Shown one piece after another: positions 18,664-49,825 of a stretch of 64,000 nt of DNA; position 1 is the stretch's first letter, and each line of letters opens with the position of its first letter. The notes under the pieces were generated by a model that was not told the origin of the DNA, searched no databases, and was given only the letters and a program-made list of their open reading frames with translations. Source of the DNA: a virus. The stretch covers positions 50,177-114,176 of the IMG/VR virus record IMGVR_UViG_3300045738_002140, one strand, 5' to 3'. The translations under genes were made by a program, and so were the position numbers.

Positions 18664-18939
18664 TCAACTCTGCAAAAAAGACCCTTGTTGGGTGCTCTGA
18701 GCTTTGGAATACAGAACTCGTGGCCTCCCTGCTTTTGGGGTAGACTTTCCGACCACCCTAAGTGCACCGCTTCTTACTGCTGTATTAATCTTTAGCTGGA
18801 TTGATACATTAGACAAGGGTGTTGATACCGTGGAGGCTAAGTCCTTGACTGTAAAGTGGCCGTCCGGCCACTCTACCTTCACTGCTGGTCTTCCGCGACG
18901 CTTTACGTCTGTATTGACTGATTGATTTTGTGTGTTCAT
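18664..18939 (-). CDS. small basic protein with AT-hook-like R-G-R-P motifs
   Basis: A 91-residue protein with 'KRRGRPAVKVEWPDGHFTVK' near the start and 'PKAGRPRVLY' near the end, both G-R-P cores of AT-hook-like minor-groove binders. The middle ('DLASTVSTPLSNVSIQLKIN') reads like a helix-turn-helix. It is the first leftward gene from the divergent promoter region and could be a transcription regulator. DNA binding is an inference. Confidence 0.6.
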   Translation of the reverse strand: MNTQNQSVNTDVKRRGRPAVKVEWPDGHFTVKDLASTVSTPLSNVSIQLKINTAVRSGALRVVGKSTPKAGRPRVLYSKAQSTQQGSFLQS

Positions 18940-19018: not shown

Positions 19019-19429
19019 ATGACTTCGCTTGACGCATCTAATAAGCTTTTTGAATGGTTCGCTGAAAACGATACCTTTTCCTTGGAGCGAGACTTTGGCG
19101 GCGTTATGCCTGAGTTTAATGATAGGGAGGAGGGGGGCGCCATACTCACCTGTGCCCTAAGAGATCTTGAAGCAATAGATTTTATACAAAATTGTGGTGA
19201 CTTTTGGGTTTTGAAGAAACCCTTTGTCTCGTTTTCTCAAAACGTAGAGCTACAGCCTCAGGTCTGCTTGGGTATCTCTCAGGTCATCAATGGGTTTTGC
19301 GGTATTATAGGCGACGAATCGGACGCCTGCGACCCTTCTAGGGTACAGCCCAAGGACATATCAAACATGCTGACTATATGCGGTTATCTCATGCAGCAGA
19401 ACGCTCAAGAAAGTGATAAGGAAGAATGA
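19019..19429 (+). CDS. unknown 136-residue acidic protein, first gene of the rightward arm
   Basis: The start at 19019 follows from the promoter position; in-frame ATG 19010 and TTG 18995 are possible. The protein is soluble, with 'LFEWFAENDTFSLERDFGGV' and a Cys-containing C-terminal half ('DISNMLTICGYLMQQ'). It overlaps the next gene by 4 bases (ATGA), so the two are coupled. I do not recognise the family. Confidence 0.65.
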   Translation: MTSLDASNKLFEWFAENDTFSLERDFGGVMPEFNDREEGGAILTCALRDLEAIDFIQNCGDFWVLKKPFVSFSQNVELQPQVCLGISQVINGFCGIIGDESDACDPSRVQPKDISNMLTICGYLMQQNAQESDKEE

Positions 19430-20289
19430 ATATAGGAATCGTAGGGAATGGGTTTGTGGGGAAAGCTACCGCCCTGCTCGGGTGCAGGGATGAGCGCGGT
19501 ACTTATCGTTCTGAAGATAATGTCATAATGACTTACGACAAGGACCCAGACAAGAGGGTGCCTAGGGAAGTGGAGCTTCATCATCTTAAGGATTGTGGCG
19601 TGGTGTTCGTATGCGTTCCAACGCCCATGAATAAAGATGGGTCATGTTACACGGGTATCGTTGAGGAAGTCATCGAAGAGCTTCGGTCGAACGACGTCGA
19701 GGATATAGTCATAAGGTCAACTGTGCCTGTGGGGTTTTGTCGCGAGCAGGGCGTTAACTTTATGCCTGAGTTTTTAACTGAAGCTAGCTGGGGAGAGGAC
19801 TTTAAGTCGTGCAGGAACTGGGTGTTTGGTTTAGACGATCCAGACAATAAGGATTTGAAATTAAAATTAAGACAAATATTCTTAACTGCCAAGCATAATG
19901 GCAAAATTAACCATGCTAATTTTATGTTTTGCCCTAGCGAGGTGGCAGAGTTGAGCAAGTACGCTAGAAATTGTTTCTTGGCAACCAAGGTCTCTTTTTT
20001 TAATGAAATAGAAGAATTTTGTAGGGTTAAAAACATCTCGTACGAACAAGTAAGAGAGCTCGTAGGCATGGACGACAGGATTGGGACAAGTCACACCTCT
20101 GTTCCGGGCCCGGACGGAAAAAGGGGCTTCGGTGGAACCTGTTTCCCTAAAGATATAAGTTCTCTTTTTAACCAAATGGCAAGCTCTGGGATGGAAAGCT
20201 ATGTCGTCGAGGCTGCCTGTGCCAGAAATGTGCAGGTGGACAGAAAGGGTCAGGACTGGAAAAATAGCAAAGGAAGAGCCGTGGTTTGA
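19426..20289 (+). CDS. UDP-glucose/GDP-mannose dehydrogenase-like protein lacking the C-terminal domain
   Basis: A 287-residue protein. 'IGIVGNGFVGKATALLG' is the NAD-binding motif, 'VVFVCVPTPM' the second strand signature, 'RSTVPVGF' the conserved loop, and 'GFGGTCFPKDISSL' holds the catalytic Cys (C239). Full-length enzymes (~400-450) have a second Rossmann domain after the dimer helix; this one stops just after the helix. Family members oxidise the C6 of a nucleotide sugar to a carboxylate. Whether the short form is active is unclear. Its stop overlaps the TTG start of dut. Confidence 0.85.
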   Translation: MNIGIVGNGFVGKATALLGCRDERGTYRSEDNVIMTYDKDPDKRVPREVELHHLKDCGVVFVCVPTPMNKDGSCYTGIVEEVIEELRSNDVEDIVIRSTVPVGFCREQGVNFMPEFLTEASWGEDFKSCRNWVFGLDDPDNKDLKLKLRQIFLTAKHNGKINHANFMFCPSEVAELSKYARNCFLATKVSFFNEIEEFCRVKNISYEQVRELVGMDDRIGTSHTSVPGPDGKRGFGGTCFPKDISSLFNQMASSGMESYVVEAACARNVQVDRKGQDWKNSKGRAVV

Positions 20290-20771
20290 ATATAATATTC
20301 GAAAAGACTTCCTTAAGCGCGGTTAAGCCAACAAAACAGCACCCACAAGACGCTGGCTATGATTTGTACAGCACACACAGGGTTGTTATCAATCCAATGG
20401 AAAGAGCAGTCGTCCCAACTGGAATAATCGCTCAAATTCCTGAAGGATATTATGGCAGGATTGCGCCAAGAAGCGGGTTGGCGATCAGGAATGGGGCGGG
20501 CATACTTGCCGGGGTAATCGACTCAGGCTATGCAGGGGAAATAGGCGTCGTCCTTGTGAACTTAAACCTGCCCGTGTCCCTGTTGAACCCAAGCAAAAAG
20601 ATCGCTGCTTTTGAAAACATGTTCGGACAAAAAGGAAAAATAGAAATAAATCCCGGCGACAGGGTAGCTCAAATAATTATTGAAAAATGTTATGATGTGA
20701 CATGGACAGAGTCAACAGAAACAAAACAGTCCGAAAGGGGAGAGGGAGGTTTTGGTAGCTCAGGAATTTGA
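20286..20771 (+). CDS. dut: dUTP pyrophosphatase (trimeric dUTPase)
   Basis: A 161-residue enzyme that hydrolyses dUTP to dUMP, keeping uracil out of DNA and supplying ThyX. The five trimeric dUTPase motifs are present: 'DAGYDLY', 'APRSGLAIRNGAG', 'GVIDSGYAGEIGVVLVN', 'PGDRVAQIIIE' and the C-terminal 'RGEGGFGSSG'. There is a short insertion before motif IV ('ENMFGQKGKIEIN'). The start is TTG at 20286, overlapping the previous stop (TTGA). The gene's last bases double as the -35 region of the RNA promoter downstream. Confidence 0.95.
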   Translation: MNIIFEKTSLSAVKPTKQHPQDAGYDLYSTHRVVINPMERAVVPTGIIAQIPEGYYGRIAPRSGLAIRNGAGILAGVIDSGYAGEIGVVLVNLNLPVSLLNPSKKIAAFENMFGQKGKIEINPGDRVAQIIIEKCYDVTWTESTETKQSERGEGGFGSSGI

Positions 20772-20796
20772 CTTTCGTACATAAAGCAACTATAAT
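20768..20796 (+). promoter_or_regulatory. strong sigma-70-like promoter for the stand-alone RNA
   Basis: TTGACT (20768-20773, overlapping the dut stop), exact 17-base spacer, TATAAT (20791-20796). Transcription should start near 20803. No start codon lies near the predicted +1. Confidence 0.8.
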
Positions 20797-20802
20797 CAGA
20801 AA

Positions 20803-21148
20803 ACGGTAAAGTCCGTTTAAGCTCGCTGAGAGAAAACAGTGGAGTTTCCCCTAGGTGAGACATAATTTGTCAGGGTGGCAGCAGGAGCCCCAACCCTAGG
20901 GAATACCTGCTAGGGAAATACACACCCATTAAAAAACTGATAGGTAGTTCCTATCGCAATGCCCCGGCGTGTTGTGGTAACTGCTGTAAGGAGTTTTCAA
21001 GCACAGTTTCTCCGCCTGTAAAAAGGTAGGTAGTTTCAGGTAAAACTGATCGTGTATGTCTGCTGAATGTCCCCTCAGCTTCAAAAAAACAGGGCTTAAA
21101 GAAGGCGAAAGACATGCTCAAAACCCTCTCTCGTAGGGGGTTTTGTCT
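20803..21148 (+). ncRNA. stand-alone structured RNA of about 345 nt, class unknown
   Basis: The 443 bases between dut and the next gene hold no credible ORF but do hold a promoter, many helices and a terminator. The visible pairings are: a 5' hairpin AAACGG/CCGTTT (20801-20818); a 9-base closing helix TTTAAGCTC (20816-20824) with GGGCTTAAA (21092-21100), which shares bases with that hairpin; nested GGGTG/CACCC (20873-20877, 20923-20927) and AGCAGG/CCTGCT (20880-20885, 20906-20911); a hairpin GATAGG/CCTATC (20939-20944, 20950-20955); and CAGTTT/AAACTG (21004-21009, 21043-21048). The pieces TAAAGTCC, GCTGAATG and ACAGGGCTTA recall the conserved core of RNase P RNA (P4 and J18/2), but the match is partial. 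It is not tmRNA or tRNA. Confidence 0.78.
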
Positions 21149-21151
21149 TTT
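21120..21151 (+). terminator. rho-independent terminator of the structured RNA
   Basis: Nine-base stem AAAACCCTC / GGGGGTTTT (21120-21128, 21136-21144; one G-U), 7-base loop, then GTCTTTT. Confidence 0.88.
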
Positions 21152-21178
21152 CTCCTTAAGAAAGGCGTCAACATACTT

Positions 21179-21214: not shown

Positions 21215-21568
21215 ATGGATATCGATTATGATGTTGTTCTTGCTAATTCTTTTATAAGCTGTGCTGTGTTACTGGTCTGGTTTAAGACTGAGGCTGTGCT
21301 AGAATACGCAAAGCTATTCGGCTTGGGTAAGATTTTCTACGAAAAAGAATATGAAAAATTTGCAAAGACTAATATGTTTCTTGGGTACCACGATTTTCTT
21401 TTAAAAAAACATAACTGTTTTGTAATGAGGCTTATCACTTGCCCTGTTTGTCTTACGGTTTGGATGAGCGTTTTTTTTGCTTTATTTTTTGGTTTTTATT
21501 ACTTGTGTCCTAATATTATTATTAGTTTGAGTATCTATTTTTTTGTGTTAAAATTAATGAAGGATTAA
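21215..21568 (+). CDS. small membrane protein, DUF1360-like
   Basis: A 117-residue protein with hydrophobic segments at ~7-27 and ~70-112 and a central charged helix. 'MRLITCPVCLTVWMSVFFAL' resembles the C-x-x-C-x-x-x-W motif at a membrane edge in DUF1360-type phage and Bacillus proteins. It probably sits in the inner membrane. It is followed after 3 bases by the next small gene. Function unknown. Confidence 0.65.
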   Translation: MDIDYDVVLANSFISCAVLLVWFKTEAVLEYAKLFGLGKIFYEKEYEKFAKTNMFLGYHDFLLKKHNCFVMRLITCPVCLTVWMSVFFALFFGFYYLCPNIIISLSIYFFVLKLMKD

Positions 21569-22132: not shown

Positions 22133-23068
22133 ATGAAAATTCTATCTACCTTAATCCTCGGTCTCACCCTTGCGATATCTTCGCTTGGAGCAGAGAAGAA
22201 GCAAACCACAGCAGAGCATCTACAGAATGTTTCCGTTACAATACGATCCGAGTCAGGCTTTATGGCCGGAGAAGGGTCGGGGGTGATTTTTACCAGAAAA
22301 GATTCGAAAGGAAACCTAGTAAATTTTGTATGGACCGCCGCTCACGTAGTGGACAACATGCGCCTTACTAAGCGCATACTCGTCGATGGCACATATAAAA
22401 CCATTGTACATTTTAGAGACCCTGTAATTATCAAGGAAATCCGTCAAGACGGCAGAACGGTTGGTCGCTTACAAATGGATGCGGAAGTGTTAAAGTATTC
22501 AGAAAGCGAAGACGGACATGACCTTGCGCTGCTTCGCATTCGTAAGCTGAACTTCGTAACGGATAGCGTCGTATTCTATCTTGACAAAGAGATCCCTCCC
22601 CTAGGAACAGACTTACTTCACGTTGGTTCTCTATTAGGTCAATTTGGGGCGAACTCTATGACATCAGGAATAATGTCTCAACACGGCAGGATCCTTAAAG
22701 ACCTCAATAAGCACATATTCGACCAGACTACCTGTACGGCGTTTCCGGGGTCTAGTGGAGGTGGTGTGTATTTAAAATCTGACGCCAGATATGTAGGGAT
22801 GTTGGTTCGTGGAGCAGGAGAAGGGTTTAATTTAATCGTACCTGTGAGGCGCATGGTCGAGTACTGCCAAGAGAACAAAATCATGTGGGCCCTAGATAAA
22901 AATGTGCCAATGCCCACAGAAGCCGAACTCAAGAAAATGCCCATAGAAAATGCCCCTAAGGAAAAAGAAGAAACTAAAGAGGCAAAAAAGGAAACAACTA
23001 AAAAGATGTTCCCGTTCATGTTGCGTGTAACCTACCCTAGAGTATTTATTATTAAGGAAAAAAAATAA
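22133..23068 (+). CDS. secreted trypsin-like serine protease
   Basis: A 311-residue protein with a Sec signal peptide (residues 1-20, ending 'AISSLGA'). The catalytic triad is complete: H71 in 'VWTAAHVVDN', D130 in 'DGHDLALLRI', and S208 in 'FPGSSGGGVYLK'. This is the S1C/HtrA-like fold without a visible PDZ domain. The last ~60 residues are a charged Lys/Glu linker and a short hydrophobic basic tail ('MFPFMLRVTYPRVFII'), perhaps a membrane contact. It probably works in the periplasm or outside the cell. Its stop overlaps the start of a Cys-rich lipoprotein gene (TAATG), so the two are co-translated. Confidence 0.9.
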   Translation: MKILSTLILGLTLAISSLGAEKKQTTAEHLQNVSVTIRSESGFMAGEGSGVIFTRKDSKGNLVNFVWTAAHVVDNMRLTKRILVDGTYKTIVHFRDPVIIKEIRQDGRTVGRLQMDAEVLKYSESEDGHDLALLRIRKLNFVTDSVVFYLDKEIPPLGTDLLHVGSLLGQFGANSMTSGIMSQHGRILKDLNKHIFDQTTCTAFPGSSGGGVYLKSDARYVGMLVRGAGEGFNLIVPVRRMVEYCQENKIMWALDKNVPMPTEAELKKMPIENAPKEKEETKEAKKETTKKMFPFMLRVTYPRVFIIKEKK

Positions 23069-23862: not shown

Positions 23863-24543
23863 CTACCACACTCGGGTTTTGTATTCAATTATTATACCCA
23901 TTGTGCTACTCAAATTATAAACAGAATGGTTATATCTATAAGGCACGAACACCACGTCCCCAGACTCTTGAGTACATTCAATGGTTTGTATTGTCTTTTT
24001 TAAATTAAGGTACTCCGCCTCATACCACTGAGGCCACAGAGAGCCCTTTGCGTATTCGTCGTAATATAAAAGCTCCAAGCGCGCACCCACAATAGTCGAA
24101 GAATCAAAAAGTATCCACTTCTTTTTCCCATAAACCATAAAATTTAAAGCGTCTCCATGAGAATGAGGCAGCGCGCCAGTCCCTGCATCACCAGAAAAGA
24201 ATATATGACCACCAACATCCCCTTCATCAAAGAATACATTAGGAAACGTAAAGTCGCTTAAAAAATCCCCACGCTCTACCACTCCCTGTCTTGTAAAGGT
24301 ATACTCTTTTTTGTCATATAGATTGTTAAAAAAGTTTTCATAAGTTGCACGCTTAGAAGAATAAACAGGCCGAGCGTCATCGCTATAAGAACAAATACTT
24401 TTTCCCCATTTTTTAATGATATATTCTTTGTCCCATTTTTTTAAGTTTTTAAATTCGCTTGTGCCGTTTTTTATTAGAGTTGGTATCCTTCGCCGCCTAA
24501 GATCAGCAAGGGACTCCCTTGTTATATCAGTTACTGTATTCAT
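23863..24543 (-). CDS. JmjC/cupin-8-like 2-oxoglutarate-Fe(II) oxygenase
   Basis: A 226-residue protein. 'GALPHSHGDALNFMVYGKKK' near residue 125 carries H-x-D, the start of the iron facial triad and the 2-oxoglutarate-binding strand. 'GDVVFVPYRYNHSVYNLSS' carries the distal His. This matches the cupin-8/FIH group, which hydroxylates amino-acid side chains of proteins. It stands divergent from a polypeptide GlcNAc-transferase-like gene, which suggests hydroxylation followed by glycosylation (inference). Co-transcribed with signal peptidase. Confidence 0.8.
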   Translation of the reverse strand: MNTVTDITRESLADLRRRRIPTLIKNGTSEFKNLKKWDKEYIIKKWGKSICSYSDDARPVYSSKRATYENFFNNLYDKKEYTFTRQGVVERGDFLSDFTFPNVFFDEGDVGGHIFFSGDAGTGALPHSHGDALNFMVYGKKKWILFDSSTIVGARLELLYYDEYAKGSLWPQWYEAEYLNLKKTIQTIECTQESGDVVFVPYRYNHSVYNLSSTMGIIIEYKTRVW

Positions 24544-24623
24544 CTAGGTTAAAATAATTATCGACATATAACTAAAAAAAGTCTAGAAATTCTCACAGCG
24601 TCCTTCTACTATTAAGAAGACAG

Positions 24624-25955
24624 ATGGATAAGATTTTTATACAAATAGCCAGCTACAGAGACCCCGAGTTAGTGCCCACCATAAAGGACTGTCTTGATAA
24701 CGCATCAGACCCAGAGGCCCTAGTGTTTGGAATATGCAGGCAATTTCATGAAGACGACGGATTCGATAGCCTTGAAGAATACAAAGATGATCCGAGATTT
24801 AGGATAAAAGATATACCCCATAACGAAACGAAAGGAACCTGTTGGGCCAGAAACCAAATACAACAGCTGTATGAAGGAGAAAAATATACCCTACAGCTTG
24901 ACTCCCACCACAGATTCACAAAGGACTGGGACGATCAGCTTAAGAAAATGTTCCACGACCTAGTAGGCCTCGGTTACCAAAAACCCCTACTTACAGCATA
25001 CATATCCTCATATAACCCCAGAAAGGACCCAGAAGAACGGGTGCAAGAGCCTTGGCAAATGAATTTCGATAGGTTCATACCAGAAGGCGCGGTGTTTTTT
25101 ATGCCATCAACGATAGAGAACTGGGAGAAGCTAAAATACCCAGTACCCGCTAGGTTCTATTCCGCTCATTTTTGTTTTACTTGGGGAAAATTCTGCGAAG
25201 AGGTCCAGCATGATCCAGAATATTATTTCCACGGGGAGGAGATAAGCATCGCGGCAAGAGCTTACACCCATGGGTACGACATGTTCCACCCGCATAAGGT
25301 TGTAATATGGCACGAATACACAAGGAAAGGGAGGACGAAACAATGGGACGACGATTCAGATTGGGGAAACAAGAACGCCTCGTCTCACCTAAGGAACAGA
25401 AAGCTATTTGGAATGGACGGGCTTAAGCGTGACATAGAATTCGGAAAATATGGATTCGGGAGCCAGAGGTCACTGCAGGATTATGAAATATACTCAGGAC
25501 TTCACTTCGCAAAGAGAGCCATTCAGCAATGGACCAAGGATGATAACTATCCGCCCAACCCAAATACATACAAGTCACAAGAAGAATGGGAGGAGTCATT
25601 TCTAAAAATATTTAAGCATTGCATAGACCTTGACAAAAACCAAGTACCAGAAAATGATTATGATTTCTGGGCCGTAGCCTTCCACGACAAAAAAGGCAAT
25701 ACGATAAACAGAAGAGATGTGGTTGCAGAAGAAATGCCACACCTCTACAACGACCCAGACGGATATATAAAGATTTTCAGAGAATTCGAAACGAATGAAC
25801 TCCCCTACGAATGGGTTGTTTGGCCGCACAGCAAGTCCAAAGAGTGGATGGATAGGCTTTCTGGAAGAATATTTCCAGAAGACACACACCAAGAAAATCC
25901 CGCCACGCCAGAAGGTCCGAGCGTAGTTGATGCGGTTGTTTTAAATGAAGAATGA
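24624..25955 (+). CDS. GlcNAc-transferase family protein (Skp1-type, PF11397-like)
   Basis: A 443-residue protein opening 'IFIQIASYRDPELVPTIKDC', the hallmark of the GLCNAC family whose known members add GlcNAc to hydroxyproline or protein acceptors. 'EKYTLQLDSHHRFTKDWD' (~86-103) is the D-x-H metal site, and 'FHGEEISIAARAYTHGYDMF' the catalytic acidic block. The last ~150 residues are an extra domain with many Trp and Asp. It overlaps the carbamoyltransferase by 11 bases. Donor and acceptor here are unknown. Confidence 0.85.
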   Translation: MDKIFIQIASYRDPELVPTIKDCLDNASDPEALVFGICRQFHEDDGFDSLEEYKDDPRFRIKDIPHNETKGTCWARNQIQQLYEGEKYTLQLDSHHRFTKDWDDQLKKMFHDLVGLGYQKPLLTAYISSYNPRKDPEERVQEPWQMNFDRFIPEGAVFFMPSTIENWEKLKYPVPARFYSAHFCFTWGKFCEEVQHDPEYYFHGEEISIAARAYTHGYDMFHPHKVVIWHEYTRKGRTKQWDDDSDWGNKNASSHLRNRKLFGMDGLKRDIEFGKYGFGSQRSLQDYEIYSGLHFAKRAIQQWTKDDNYPPNPNTYKSQEEWEESFLKIFKHCIDLDKNQVPENDYDFWAVAFHDKKGNTINRRDVVAEEMPHLYNDPDGYIKIFREFETNELPYEWVVWPHSKSKEWMDRLSGRIFPEDTHQENPATPEGPSVVDAVVLNEE

Positions 25956-27585
25956 ATCAATCATATCCATATATGGCTCTCACAACGGTGGAGTTTCCGT
26001 TTACCACAACGGTGAGATTCATGTAATAGAATCTGAAAGATTTTATGGTATAAAAAATTGCGGCCTCTGCCAATACAAGACGCCCACCCAATACAAAATT
26101 GATTTTTCTTTTCAAGAGATATTAAGGTTCCTCAATAGACATTACAACATACCGCTAAAGTTTGGCAAGTGCCTACACCAAAGCACAGACTACGTCATAG
26201 GGGAAGAAAGATTTGAACTCACAGAGGGCATAGACTGCGAAGAGCGCACCCACTGCCTGCACCACGAAAGCCATGCAAACGGCTCATTTTACCAATCAGA
26301 CTTCCTAAAAGCCCTTGTTCTCTCATATGACGGCGGAGGCAACGACGGAACTTTCAACATCTACCTAGCCGACAGAAAGAAGGGCATTAAATTAATAAAA
26401 AATTACTTCATGGTTAACCTAGGTTTTCCCTATATGATATTTGGACATTACTTTAGCGACATTGCCCAAGAGATGCTGTCGCAAGGCAATCTAGTTTATT
26501 CCGGCAAGATCATGGGGTTAGAAGCGTATGGAAAAGTCGTAGAGAAATGGCTCCCGTTTTTTGAGGACTTTTATGATTGCCCTATGCACGCCGACTTTCA
26601 AAAAGTGGAAGAAGATTATTTTTATGTAAATAAACTCAACAAACTTTCAGAGCACACGGGTATAACGTTCGACGAGGCGGCCAGACTAGAAGGCGAAGAA
26701 GAATACAACACTGCAGCGACATCACAAAAGGCCTTTGAAAACGTTTTTATAAAATACGCAAGACCATTCATAGAAGAGCACCCCAAGCTACCCATTATAT
26801 TAACTGGCGGCTGCGCCCTCAACATATCCCTCAACTCGAGAATTAAAGAGGAGTTCAACAGACCCATGTTCATAGCCCCAAACAGCAACGACTCAGGGCT
26901 GTCGCTTGGCATGCTCCTCGGACACCTCAAGCCACAACAAGCCCCGGAGGTAACCTATTGCGGCCTCCCCTTACTGGACAGGGAGTCCCTACTCTCTGAC
27001 CTAGGTGAGCGCCTGCTAGGCAATTACGCAGAAGAGGACATAAACGATGTTTGTTTGGAAAGCTTAGCCGGGATGCTTAAGGCCGGTAAAATAATTGGTG
27101 TAGCGAGAGGAAATTCTGAGCATGGGCCCAGAGCACTAGGGAACAGGAGCATACTGTGCAATCCTTCTATAGAGGGAATGAAAGATACGCTTAACGAAAA
27201 AGTCAAACACAGAGAATGGTTTCGACCCTTTGCTCCAGTCGTGAGACTTGAAGATGTTAATAAATATTTTTTATTTAATGGAGAATCAAGACACATGACT
27301 TACTCATGTAAAGTAAAAAAAGCATGGAGAAAAAAATTGAAAGCGGTTACGCATATAGACAACACGGCGAGAATACAAACCGTAAAAAGAACAGAAAACC
27401 CTTGGCTCTACGATCTATTAACTTACTTTGATTCAGTTAATGACCATGGAGTTCTTCTCAACACGTCCCTTAATGTAAACGGTAAACCCATACTCTCGAC
27501 AATAAAAGATGCAGTGCAAATATTTGACGAGGGATTGGACGCATTAGTGATAGACGACCTCATCATATCAAAAAATGACAAGTAA
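25945..27585 (+). CDS. NodU/TobZ-type carbamoyltransferase
   Basis: A 546-residue protein. The N-terminal ASKHA-like domain shows 'ISIYGSHNGGVSVYHNGEIH', 'HCLHHESHANGSFYQSD' (metal-binding His residues), 'LVLSYDGGGNDGTFNIY' and 'ILTGGCALNISLNSRI'. The C-terminal YrdC-like part has 'GNSEHGPRALGNRSILCNP' and 'HREWFRPFAPVV'. These are the family's signatures for O-carbamoylation of sugars or antibiotics using carbamoyl phosphate and ATP. The length is near normal. In this setting a glycan hydroxyl is the likely acceptor. It overlaps both neighbours. Confidence 0.93.
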   Translation: MKNESIISIYGSHNGGVSVYHNGEIHVIESERFYGIKNCGLCQYKTPTQYKIDFSFQEILRFLNRHYNIPLKFGKCLHQSTDYVIGEERFELTEGIDCEERTHCLHHESHANGSFYQSDFLKALVLSYDGGGNDGTFNIYLADRKKGIKLIKNYFMVNLGFPYMIFGHYFSDIAQEMLSQGNLVYSGKIMGLEAYGKVVEKWLPFFEDFYDCPMHADFQKVEEDYFYVNKLNKLSEHTGITFDEAARLEGEEEYNTAATSQKAFENVFIKYARPFIEEHPKLPIILTGGCALNISLNSRIKEEFNRPMFIAPNSNDSGLSLGMLLGHLKPQQAPEVTYCGLPLLDRESLLSDLGERLLGNYAEEDINDVCLESLAGMLKAGKIIGVARGNSEHGPRALGNRSILCNPSIEGMKDTLNEKVKHREWFRPFAPVVRLEDVNKYFLFNGESRHMTYSCKVKKAWRKKLKAVTHIDNTARIQTVKRTENPWLYDLLTYFDSVNDHGVLLNTSLNVNGKPILSTIKDAVQIFDEGLDALVIDDLIISKNDK

Positions 27586-29992
27586 AAAAAAGAACGAGCT
27601 GATAAGGAGATGGCATAAAGAACAATGCAGACATGTAGACTCTTTAATTCACAGCATTACGGAGATCCTGCCCAAGAAAGACTCCTATAATATAATAGAT
27701 ATTGGCAGCAACACAGGGAGATTTTTTGTAAACCTTTCAAAAAAAATAAAGATAAACAAAGGTATCCTAATAGAACCATCAGTTGACCTATACCGCTTTT
27801 CTAAAAGAAACCTATACAAAAACAAAAAAGTTAAAATATATAACTACGGACTAGCCTCAAAAACAAAGAGCGTTAACTTTTATAGCGCACTTAGCTCAAA
27901 CAAAAAGGTAGACGAATCAGACCTTAACCTTGGCCTAGACAAAGTTGTCGGACACGGGGGAGAGGAAGTCACATTTTATAGCCTTGACGACCTAGTCGCA
28001 GACAAGAGGATCGACCTCAAAGGGCTAGGCGAGGTTGATTTAATTAAAATAGACTGCGAAGGATACGACTACGAAGTGCTTGAAGGTATGTTGGTTTTTC
28101 TGTCGTCGCTTAAGCTCAAACCAGTGATAGTCTTTGAATCAGCCCAAGGAAAACTTGGCGCAGACTTTTCAAATAACGAAAGCCTCATCAGCAAATATAA
28201 CGAGGCAGGCTTTTACTGCGAGGAGCTTTACAAGGGTAGCTCAGACATGTTCTTTGCCCCATCAGGACTAACAAACAAAGATGACTATCCCTCCGACACA
28301 GAAAGCATAACCGTTGTCACGGGAATATGGAACCTAAGAAGAGACAAGGCAGGGAAGGGCTTTAAGAGATCGTTCGACTACTACACAGAAAATTTCATTA
28401 AACTATTGAAGACCGATGTCCCTATGTATATATACATAGAAAAAGAATACGAGAAGTTAGTTTGGGAACATCGATCAAAAACAAATACCCACGTCCACAT
28501 AAAAGAGTCAGCCGAGTTCAAGGACTTCCCCTTTTTCAAGGACGTTCAAAAAATAAGAAAAAGAAAAAGGTGGAAGGGCCAAGCTAGCTGGCTAGCCGAG
28601 AGCACACAGGCGACGATGGAGCTCTACAACCCCATGGTAATGAGCAAGATGTTCATGCTCCATGACGCAAGCCTACTTGATCCATTTGGAAGTGAATACT
28701 TTCTGTGGGTTGACGGAGGCCTAACATCGACCACGCACGAAGGATACTTCACGAAGCACGAGATCATACCTAAAATAAAACCATTCCTAGACAGTTTCTT
28801 ATTCCTTTGCTTTCCATATCACACGGAAGCAGAGATACACGGCTTCGAGAAACGAGCAATGGACACCTATTCAGAAACAAAAAGCGTAGAATGGGTGGCG
28901 AGAGGGGGGCTGTTCGGAGGAAGGAAAGAGTTCATATCCGAGGCGAATGGGCTTTATTACTCTTTACTAGAAACCTCTCTGAGAGAGGGCTTTATGGGCA
29001 CAGAAGAGAGCGTCTTTACCATCATGACGTATTTAAATCCTCAGATTTATAACAGGTTCATGATAAAAGAAGATGGGTTTATTCATACCTTTTTTGAGGA
29101 CATACTAGAAGGCAAGGCTAAGATAGAGGACCCAATTGCGACGGCCAGAAAGCAGAACAAAATAGTAGACCTAAGAAAAATAAAAGCATCTCTATATGTG
29201 ATAACATTTAATTCCCCAGAACAGTTGCAACTACTTCTAAGCTCGTACGAATTACACAAAGACTTCCTGAGCTCTCCTAACCTCACAAAGGTCCTAATAG
29301 ATAACTCGACAAAGAAAAAGGTAGACAAAAAATATAAAGCAATATGTAAAAAATATGGCTTCGAGCACATAAAGAAAGGCAACATAGGCATCTGCGGCGG
29401 AAGACAGCTAGCAGCAGAACACTTTGATAAGTCAGACTCAGACTATATGTTTTTCCTAGAGGACGACATGACCCTTTACCCTCCCCAAAGCCAATTGCTG
29501 TGCGCCAACGGGCTCAAGACTTATGTCGCTGGCCTGTACGAAAAATCCCTGAAGATAATGATTAAAGAAAACTATGACTTTATGAAGCTTTCTTTTACTG
29601 AATTTTTTGGTGACAACACGAACCAGTGGGCGTGGTATAATGTACCGCAAAACAAGAGAGAAGAGTACTGGCCAGACTACAATGAGCTGCCCATCGTTGG
29701 GCTCGATGCAAATTGTCCTAACACAAAATTCAATAATATAAAAAGCCTAGACGGCCTACCATACGTAGACGGAGAAATTTACTACTGTAACTGGCCACAG
29801 GTGGTGAGCAAGGAAGGAAATAAAAAGATGTTCCTTGAAACAACTTGGGGCCACCCATTTGAACAGACTTGGATGTCTTACATATTCCAAAAAACTAAAG
29901 AGGGAGAAATAAAACCAGCTATACTCCTAGCTTCACCCATCCATCACCACAGAGAGCACCATTACAGGGCAAGCGAAAGAGTGGAGTCCTAA
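27575..29992 (+). CDS. three-domain fusion: FkbM methyltransferase, HtrL/YibB-like domain, GT2-like glycosyltransferase
   Basis: An 805-residue protein. Residues ~30-220 form an FkbM-type SAM methyltransferase ('NIIDIGSNTGRFFVNLSKK', 'VDLIKIDCEGYDYEVLEGM'). Residues ~247-520 resemble the HtrL/YibB glycosyltransferase-like family ('VTGIWNLRRDKAGKGF', 'YNPMVMSKMFMLHDAS', 'GSEYFLWVDGGL'). Residues ~537-800 read as a GT2-like domain ('SLYVITFNSPEQLQLLLSSY', 'YMFFLEDDMTLYPP' with a D-D-x metal site). It may build and cap a glycan in sequence. It ends 4 bases into the convergent small gene. Confidence 0.82.
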   Translation: MTSKKKNELIRRWHKEQCRHVDSLIHSITEILPKKDSYNIIDIGSNTGRFFVNLSKKIKINKGILIEPSVDLYRFSKRNLYKNKKVKIYNYGLASKTKSVNFYSALSSNKKVDESDLNLGLDKVVGHGGEEVTFYSLDDLVADKRIDLKGLGEVDLIKIDCEGYDYEVLEGMLVFLSSLKLKPVIVFESAQGKLGADFSNNESLISKYNEAGFYCEELYKGSSDMFFAPSGLTNKDDYPSDTESITVVTGIWNLRRDKAGKGFKRSFDYYTENFIKLLKTDVPMYIYIEKEYEKLVWEHRSKTNTHVHIKESAEFKDFPFFKDVQKIRKRKRWKGQASWLAESTQATMELYNPMVMSKMFMLHDASLLDPFGSEYFLWVDGGLTSTTHEGYFTKHEIIPKIKPFLDSFLFLCFPYHTEAEIHGFEKRAMDTYSETKSVEWVARGGLFGGRKEFISEANGLYYSLLETSLREGFMGTEESVFTIMTYLNPQIYNRFMIKEDGFIHTFFEDILEGKAKIEDPIATARKQNKIVDLRKIKASLYVITFNSPEQLQLLLSSYELHKDFLSSPNLTKVLIDNSTKKKVDKKYKAICKKYGFEHIKKGNIGICGGRQLAAEHFDKSDSDYMFFLEDDMTLYPPQSQLLCANGLKTYVAGLYEKSLKIMIKENYDFMKLSFTEFFGDNTNQWAWYNVPQNKREEYWPDYNELPIVGLDANCPNTKFNNIKSLDGLPYVDGEIYYCNWPQVVSKEGNKKMFLETTWGHPFEQTWMSYIFQKTKEGEIKPAILLASPIHHHREHHYRASERVES

Positions 29993-49747: not shown

Positions 49748-49825
49748 GCTCCGGTAGCTCAACTGGTTTAGAGCACACGCCTTATAAGCGTGAGGTTGTG
49801 GGTTCGAGGCCCACTCGGAGTACCA
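49748..49825 (+). tRNA. tRNA-Ile, anticodon UAU (reads AUA)
   Basis: A full cloverleaf: acceptor GCTCCGG / TCGGAGT (two G-U pairs), D-stem GCTC/GAGC, anticodon stem CACGC/GCGTG with loop CTTATAA (anticodon TAT), variable loop AGGTT, T-stem GTGGG/CCCAC with loop TTCGAGG, discriminator A and an encoded CCA. Most bacteria read AUA with a lysidine-modified CAU tRNA, so an unmodified UAU tRNA lets the phage read this codon, frequent in its own genes, independently of that enzyme. Confidence 0.95.

Follow-up and report, generated by a model that had tools for sequence, protein, structure and literature searches.

In the window, a 64,000-nucleotide stretch of phage DNA analysed here, dut (20286-20771) and a 117-aa gene (21215-21568) flank the gene of a structured RNA. 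The RNA represents a new family without a relative in Rfam 15, and novelty is claimed for the family. Comparison with homologues shows that the gene is under conserved structural selection and is present as a single copy in the records tested. The family is very likely a stand-alone, trans-acting RNA. The whole feature (20768-21174) comprises a promoter, a non-coding gene of approximately 350-380 nt and a terminator-like hairpin:

20768-20796, + strand: sigma70-type promoter TTGACT-17-TATAAT, matching the consensus at 11 of 12 positions; its -35 element overlaps the dut stop codon
20797-21174, + strand: structured RNA gene, defined by nhmmer homologues and the 33-sequence alignment A1
21093-21115, + strand: repeat c1 (GGCTTAAAGAAGGCGAAAGACAT), directly before the hairpin
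21119-21145, + strand: terminator-like hairpin of 11 bp, followed by TCTTTTC
21152-21174, + strand: repeat c2 (CTCCTTAAGAAAGGCGTCAACAT), the copy of c1 beyond the hairpin

An earlier note on this DNA had proposed a large stand-alone phage ncRNA and, as one option, a new class. Homologues, covariation, a promoter upstream of most homologues and the lack of an Rfam match support both proposals. The promoter that it placed after dut was found as described, and the best-scoring promoter of 24 of the 33 homologues has a TTGAC-type -35 element. The promoter score sum across the homologues is 290 (251 ± 4 for shuffled sequences), and the promoter is in register with the 5' hairpin. The promoter type suggests transcription by the host sigma70 polymerase and hence early expression. 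As also anticipated, no credible ORF is present: the longest sense ORF between promoter and hairpin does not exceed 26 aa. Antisense ORFs of 51-57 aa occur in the RNA region, which evolves as a structured RNA despite them. Since homology extends beyond the hairpin to approximately 21174, the end of the feature was corrected to this position. The length of the RNA is approximately 350 nt if it ends with the hairpin and 375 nt if the second repeat is included; we place its end tentatively at the hairpin or just beyond it, the 3' end being uncertain owing to c2. The folding energy indicates only modest stability (z = -1.9 relative to shuffles), and comparison across homologues was therefore needed; the proof of a structured RNA is comparative, not thermodynamic.

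With the window sequence alone, nhmmer found 8 homologues among relatives of the dut locus (E-values from 5e-15 to 2e-42). Short conserved DNA patterns, used to scan IMG/VR viral contigs, yielded further homologues. The 32 homologues from other IMG/VR phage contigs and the window copy constitute alignment A1 (n = 33, near-copies removed beforehand), with a mean pairwise identity of 57% and a minimum of 44%. A covariance model of the core detected exactly one copy in the phage record G000. Seven further phage records of 85-178 kb likewise had one copy each, and nine additional viral records had none. The model also gave no match in 398 Pseudomonadota genomes under strict filters and without a positive control, so that cellular relatives are possible. 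The RNA is absent from the 50,697 named phage records of INPHARED at blastn sensitivity, where a conserved upstream protein of a relative had no match either. The phage lineage carrying the RNA apparently consists of large, uncultured phages, as no cultured relative was found in these sequence searches. A 16-mer scan of genome contigs was followed up with nhmmer, which gave no convincing homologue at the matched loci. Gp23 and the T4-type prohead protease gave no signal as lineage markers, but the controls were silent too. The cmscan against Rfam 15 that the earlier note had suggested returned no family matching the RNA, including RNase P, GOLLD, ROOL, and tmRNA. A tmRNA was also not supported by ARAGORN, which found only a tRNA-Ile (anticodon TAT, window 49748-49825). 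No description of the RNA was found in the open-access papers searched.

The structure was derived from covariation among the 33 sequences. In an unbiased mutual-information scan of 74,305 column pairs, Watson-Crick-consistent pairs of a few helices ranked at the top, and the scan revealed two long-range pseudoknots in the core. The conserved elements are as follows:

20802-20817, + strand: H0, the 5' hairpin AACGG...CCGTT, which contains the RNase P-like word TAAAGTCC
20822-20844, + strand: H1, hairpin CTCGCTG / CAGTGGAG, with compensatory UA/CG changes
20872-20911, + strand: probable H-type pseudoknot A, in which the stem loop AGCAGG (20880-20885) pairs with CCTGCT (20906-20911)
20934-21009, + strand: core pseudoknot H8, AAAC (20934-20937) with GTTT (21006-21009), from covariation
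20939-20955, + strand: H2, hairpin GATAGG / CCTATC, double changes in all 6 pairs, 99% paired
20971-21002, + strand: core pseudoknot H9, GTT (20971-20973) with AGC (21000-21002), from covariation
20979-21035, + strand: H4, AACTGCT / GGTAGTT, double changes in 6 of 7 pairs, 99.6% paired
20990-20993 with 21010-21013, + strand: H4a, GGAG / CTCC, enclosed by H4 together with H4b
21036-21049, + strand: H5, hairpin TCAG / CTGA, double changes in all 4 pairs, 80% paired
21054-21117, + strand: H6, GTATGTCT (21054-21061) / AGACATGC (21110-21117), enclosing pseudoknot B
21062-21094, + strand: H-type pseudoknot B, with a GCTG/CAGC stem whose loop CCC (21071-21073) pairs with GGG (21092-21094)

In the resulting 48-pair structure with pseudoknots, 94.7% of the cells are paired, as compared with 78.1% in shuffles and 36-47% when the partners were slid by 1-3 columns; the lead over the slid versions is in part to be expected because the structure was partly chosen from the same alignment. 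The pair types are nevertheless decisive, as exemplified by the H2 pair 186-202, which occurs as CG, AU, GC, and UA. Double changes were observed in 33 of the 48 pairs and amount to 303 cells (98 in shuffles), a value reached in none of 500 shuffles. In this covariation analysis, of the kind that the earlier note had recommended, the region behaves as a conserved structured ncRNA, above both the shuffled and the slid controls.

The core consists of H2, H3, H4 (with H4a and H4b) and H5, and is locked by H8 and H9. Among relatives, H8 occurs as AAAC/GUUU, GGAC/GUCC, AGAC/GUCU, and GAAC/GUUC. The H9 pair 236-272 is GC in 25 sequences, AU in 7 and UA in 1, and the middle pair of H9 is weaker. Outside the core, a comparison of own with permuted partners shows covariation between the arms of H0 (z = 6.2), of H6 (z = 7.5) and of the 3' hairpin (z = 9.5). 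The H0 arms are AAAAGG...CCTTTT in most relatives, and the helix score of H6 is 500 (362 ± 13 for shuffled sequences). Pseudoknot B near the 3' end is well supported by the alignment, with a score sum of 618 relative to 371 ± 51 in shuffles and a second strand pair that becomes GGCUA/UAGCC in L199 and GCUU/AAGC in L068. Pseudoknot A in the 5' half (best score sum of 816 vs 745 ± 12 in shuffles) is probably real but less uniform than B, since compensatory versions are found in many, not all, relatives.

The 3' hairpin had been described as a terminator. Its 11-bp stem followed by TCTTTTC agrees with this in the window, whereas the U-run is missing in the relatives L010, L004, L209, and L211. 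The stem-loop itself is therefore conserved across these sequences, without being a plain terminator in every case. It is flanked by direct repeats of a 23-nt element, roughly YCY(n)AARRAAARNGT..CACAY. The mean score of c1 is 22.8 against c2 of its own genome and 13.6 against c2 of other genomes, indicating that the copies vary in concert. The c2 copy is usually shorter than c1 by one base at the same place, and the match between the two is weaker in the window (score of 16) than in the majority of its relatives. The CACAY end of c2 could pair in H6 (z = 2.7), as that of c1 does. Gene conversion, a duplicated protein-binding site, and an alternative 3' partner for H6 are possible explanations for the concerted variation. 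A third copy in H0 was rejected, as its similarity within the own genome equals that to other genomes, and no convincing copy was found elsewhere in the 114-kb record. Pairing of c2 with the strand following the hairpin was not significant. To our knowledge, no RNA family has a hairpin flanked by two copies of an element that vary together in this way.

The earlier note had raised a highly diverged RNase P-like RNA as an option. Such an RNA, which would process tRNAs of the phage or the host, now has a practically negligible probability. In its favor are the tRNA-Ile gene within the window and three short RNase P-like words that occur in the right order in the window sequence. This order is seen in the window sequence alone, and the first word does not withstand comparison: TAAAGTCC (20807-20814), with the P4-like AAAGTCC, is located within the variable loop and the 3' arm of H0, and homologues either carry another sequence in its place or lack it. 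The other two, GCTGAATG (21062-21069) and ACAGGGCTTA (21089-21098), lie in the two halves of the covarying pseudoknot B and are not parts of J18/2 and P4. The P4 helix expected from the core words (AAG(U)CC.. with ..GGGCUU) was not recovered, as its 5' strand does not covary with the c1 region. In the seven phage records examined, RF00010 did not match the RNA at E-values up to 10, whereas 11 of 14 control genomes were positive; its sole match in these records (5.4 bits) lies elsewhere in one relative. Likewise, no RNase P model was found at E-values up to 10 in a permissive Rfam scan of the region. The 9-base closing helix described in the same note, taken here as TTTAAGCTC (20816-20824) with GGGCTTAAA (21092-21100), is present in the window sequence and is not conserved (z = 0.8). 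It conflicts with the conserved H0, H1 and second strand of pseudoknot B. Both this helix and an alternative with c2 score well relative to composition shuffles; the scores disappear once partners are exchanged between homologues and thus reflect shared composition.

The 114,176-base IMG/VR virus record that contains the window encodes a DnaB-like helicase, a DnaE-like DNA polymerase, NrdA, a dNMP kinase, a sigma-like factor, and a lambda-J-type tail protein. In most loci, the RNA comes after a conserved gene for a protein of approximately 143 aa (window copy at 19019-19426), while dut takes this place in the window and a group of relatives. Because the neighboring genes are kept together as a block, they single out no specific protein partner. 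The ~143-aa family is the commonest neighbor of the RNA. Its structure model is confident (pLDDT of 92) and looks like a winged-helix protein; it matched no solved structure at E ≤ 0.001, and the window copy has no Pfam or PHROG match. A small basic protein of 91 aa with an AT-hook-like start, RRGRP (18664-18939, - strand), is conserved close to the RNA in 21 loci. The gene at 19426-20289 is UDP-glucose/GDP-mannose dehydrogenase-like with only 287 aa; its match covers the central domain and a portion of the NAD domain. A trypsin-like protease with an apparent signal peptide is located at 22133-23068. The block at 23863-29992, encoding a cupin/JmjC-like protein, a GlcNAc transferase (PF11397), a carbamoyltransferase and a methyltransferase-like protein, is probably surface-glycan or DNA-modification cargo. 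In six relatives (L041, L053, L069, L052, L204, and L196), variable cargo genes, several of them convergent, lie directly 3' of the RNA. By eye they are sulfotransferase-, glycosyltransferase-, and methyltransferase-like, and the spot is a possible insertion hotspot.

This setting bears on whether the element acts in cis. A leader, riboswitch-like or an attenuator, controlling the next gene would account for the same-strand gene that begins shortly downstream in most loci and for the terminator-like hairpin at the 3' end, and the manA and wcaG RNAs of cyanophages, located in potential 5' UTRs of metabolic genes, may likewise be leaders (PMC2864571). It is quite improbable here, because no consistent same-strand gene follows: the next gene is a dNMP kinase in 13 loci, a member of the 117-aa family in 8, another same-strand gene in 6 and a convergent gene in 6. 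There is also no clear anti-terminator, as the 5' strand does not covary with c1 or c2 (z = 0.8 and 0.9). Very improbable is a function at the DNA level, as a replication origin or recombination hotspot, with a phage protein binding to c1 and c2 and an incidental RNA. The concerted variation of these direct repeats and a spot that takes variable genes would suit it, while RNA-type covariation over approximately 48 pairs, including G-U pairs and pseudoknots, and the promoter in register with the 5' hairpin argue against it. The variable downstream genes, six of them convergent, and the RNA's own promoter favor a trans-acting stand-alone RNA over a leader.

Because its folded shape is kept in at least 33 strongly diverged phages, the RNA must, on this comparative evidence, have an important role. 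That a fold with several pseudoknots persists at 57% identity is suggestive of an RNP scaffold or an RNA assembly. The RNA would most likely fold into one rigid domain serving as a scaffold, together with one or more proteins or with further copies of itself, and would influence gene expression of the host or phage, or nucleotide metabolism, during take-over. We consider this scaffold or RNP mode of action plausible and tentative, and any single target distinctly unlikely. On a more speculative and rather unlikely reading, the RNA is a multi-pseudoknot RNP scaffold or catalyst with a duplicated c1-hairpin-c2 module, in which either copy could complete H6 and thereby provide two alternative 3' states during phage take-over. 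If this two-state reading were true, the RNA would be a new machine working in host take-over. Few large structured RNAs are known to be conserved in phages; of these, GOLLD and ROOL had unexpected architectures. The present RNA is compact enough for structure determination, occurs as a single copy, recurs in records of 85-178 kb and has a strong covariation model, which opens its structure and partner to direct testing.

Among known RNAs, RNase P RNA (RF00010) resembles the family in length and, by chance, in three short words, and differs in its pseudoknot topology; neither a covariance-model match nor a conserved P4 is found here. The manA and wcaG RNAs, from marine metagenomes and cyanophages, are likewise complex, whereas the present RNA has its own promoter, variable or convergent neighbors and no Rfam match. 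GOLLD and ROOL assemble into homo-oligomeric cages, octameric in ROOL; both are often near tRNA islands, and many GOLLD members exceed 800 nt (PMC12286853). The present RNA is smaller than GOLLD, lies far from the only tRNA gene of the window, in a block of nucleotide-metabolism and regulator genes, and matches neither covariance model, so that an ornate RNA self-assembling into such a cage appears unlikely from this comparison. It shares with GOLLD a stand-alone, phage-encoded gene and an elaborate structure, and with ROOL the phage origin and several pseudoknots, with no obvious protein partner.
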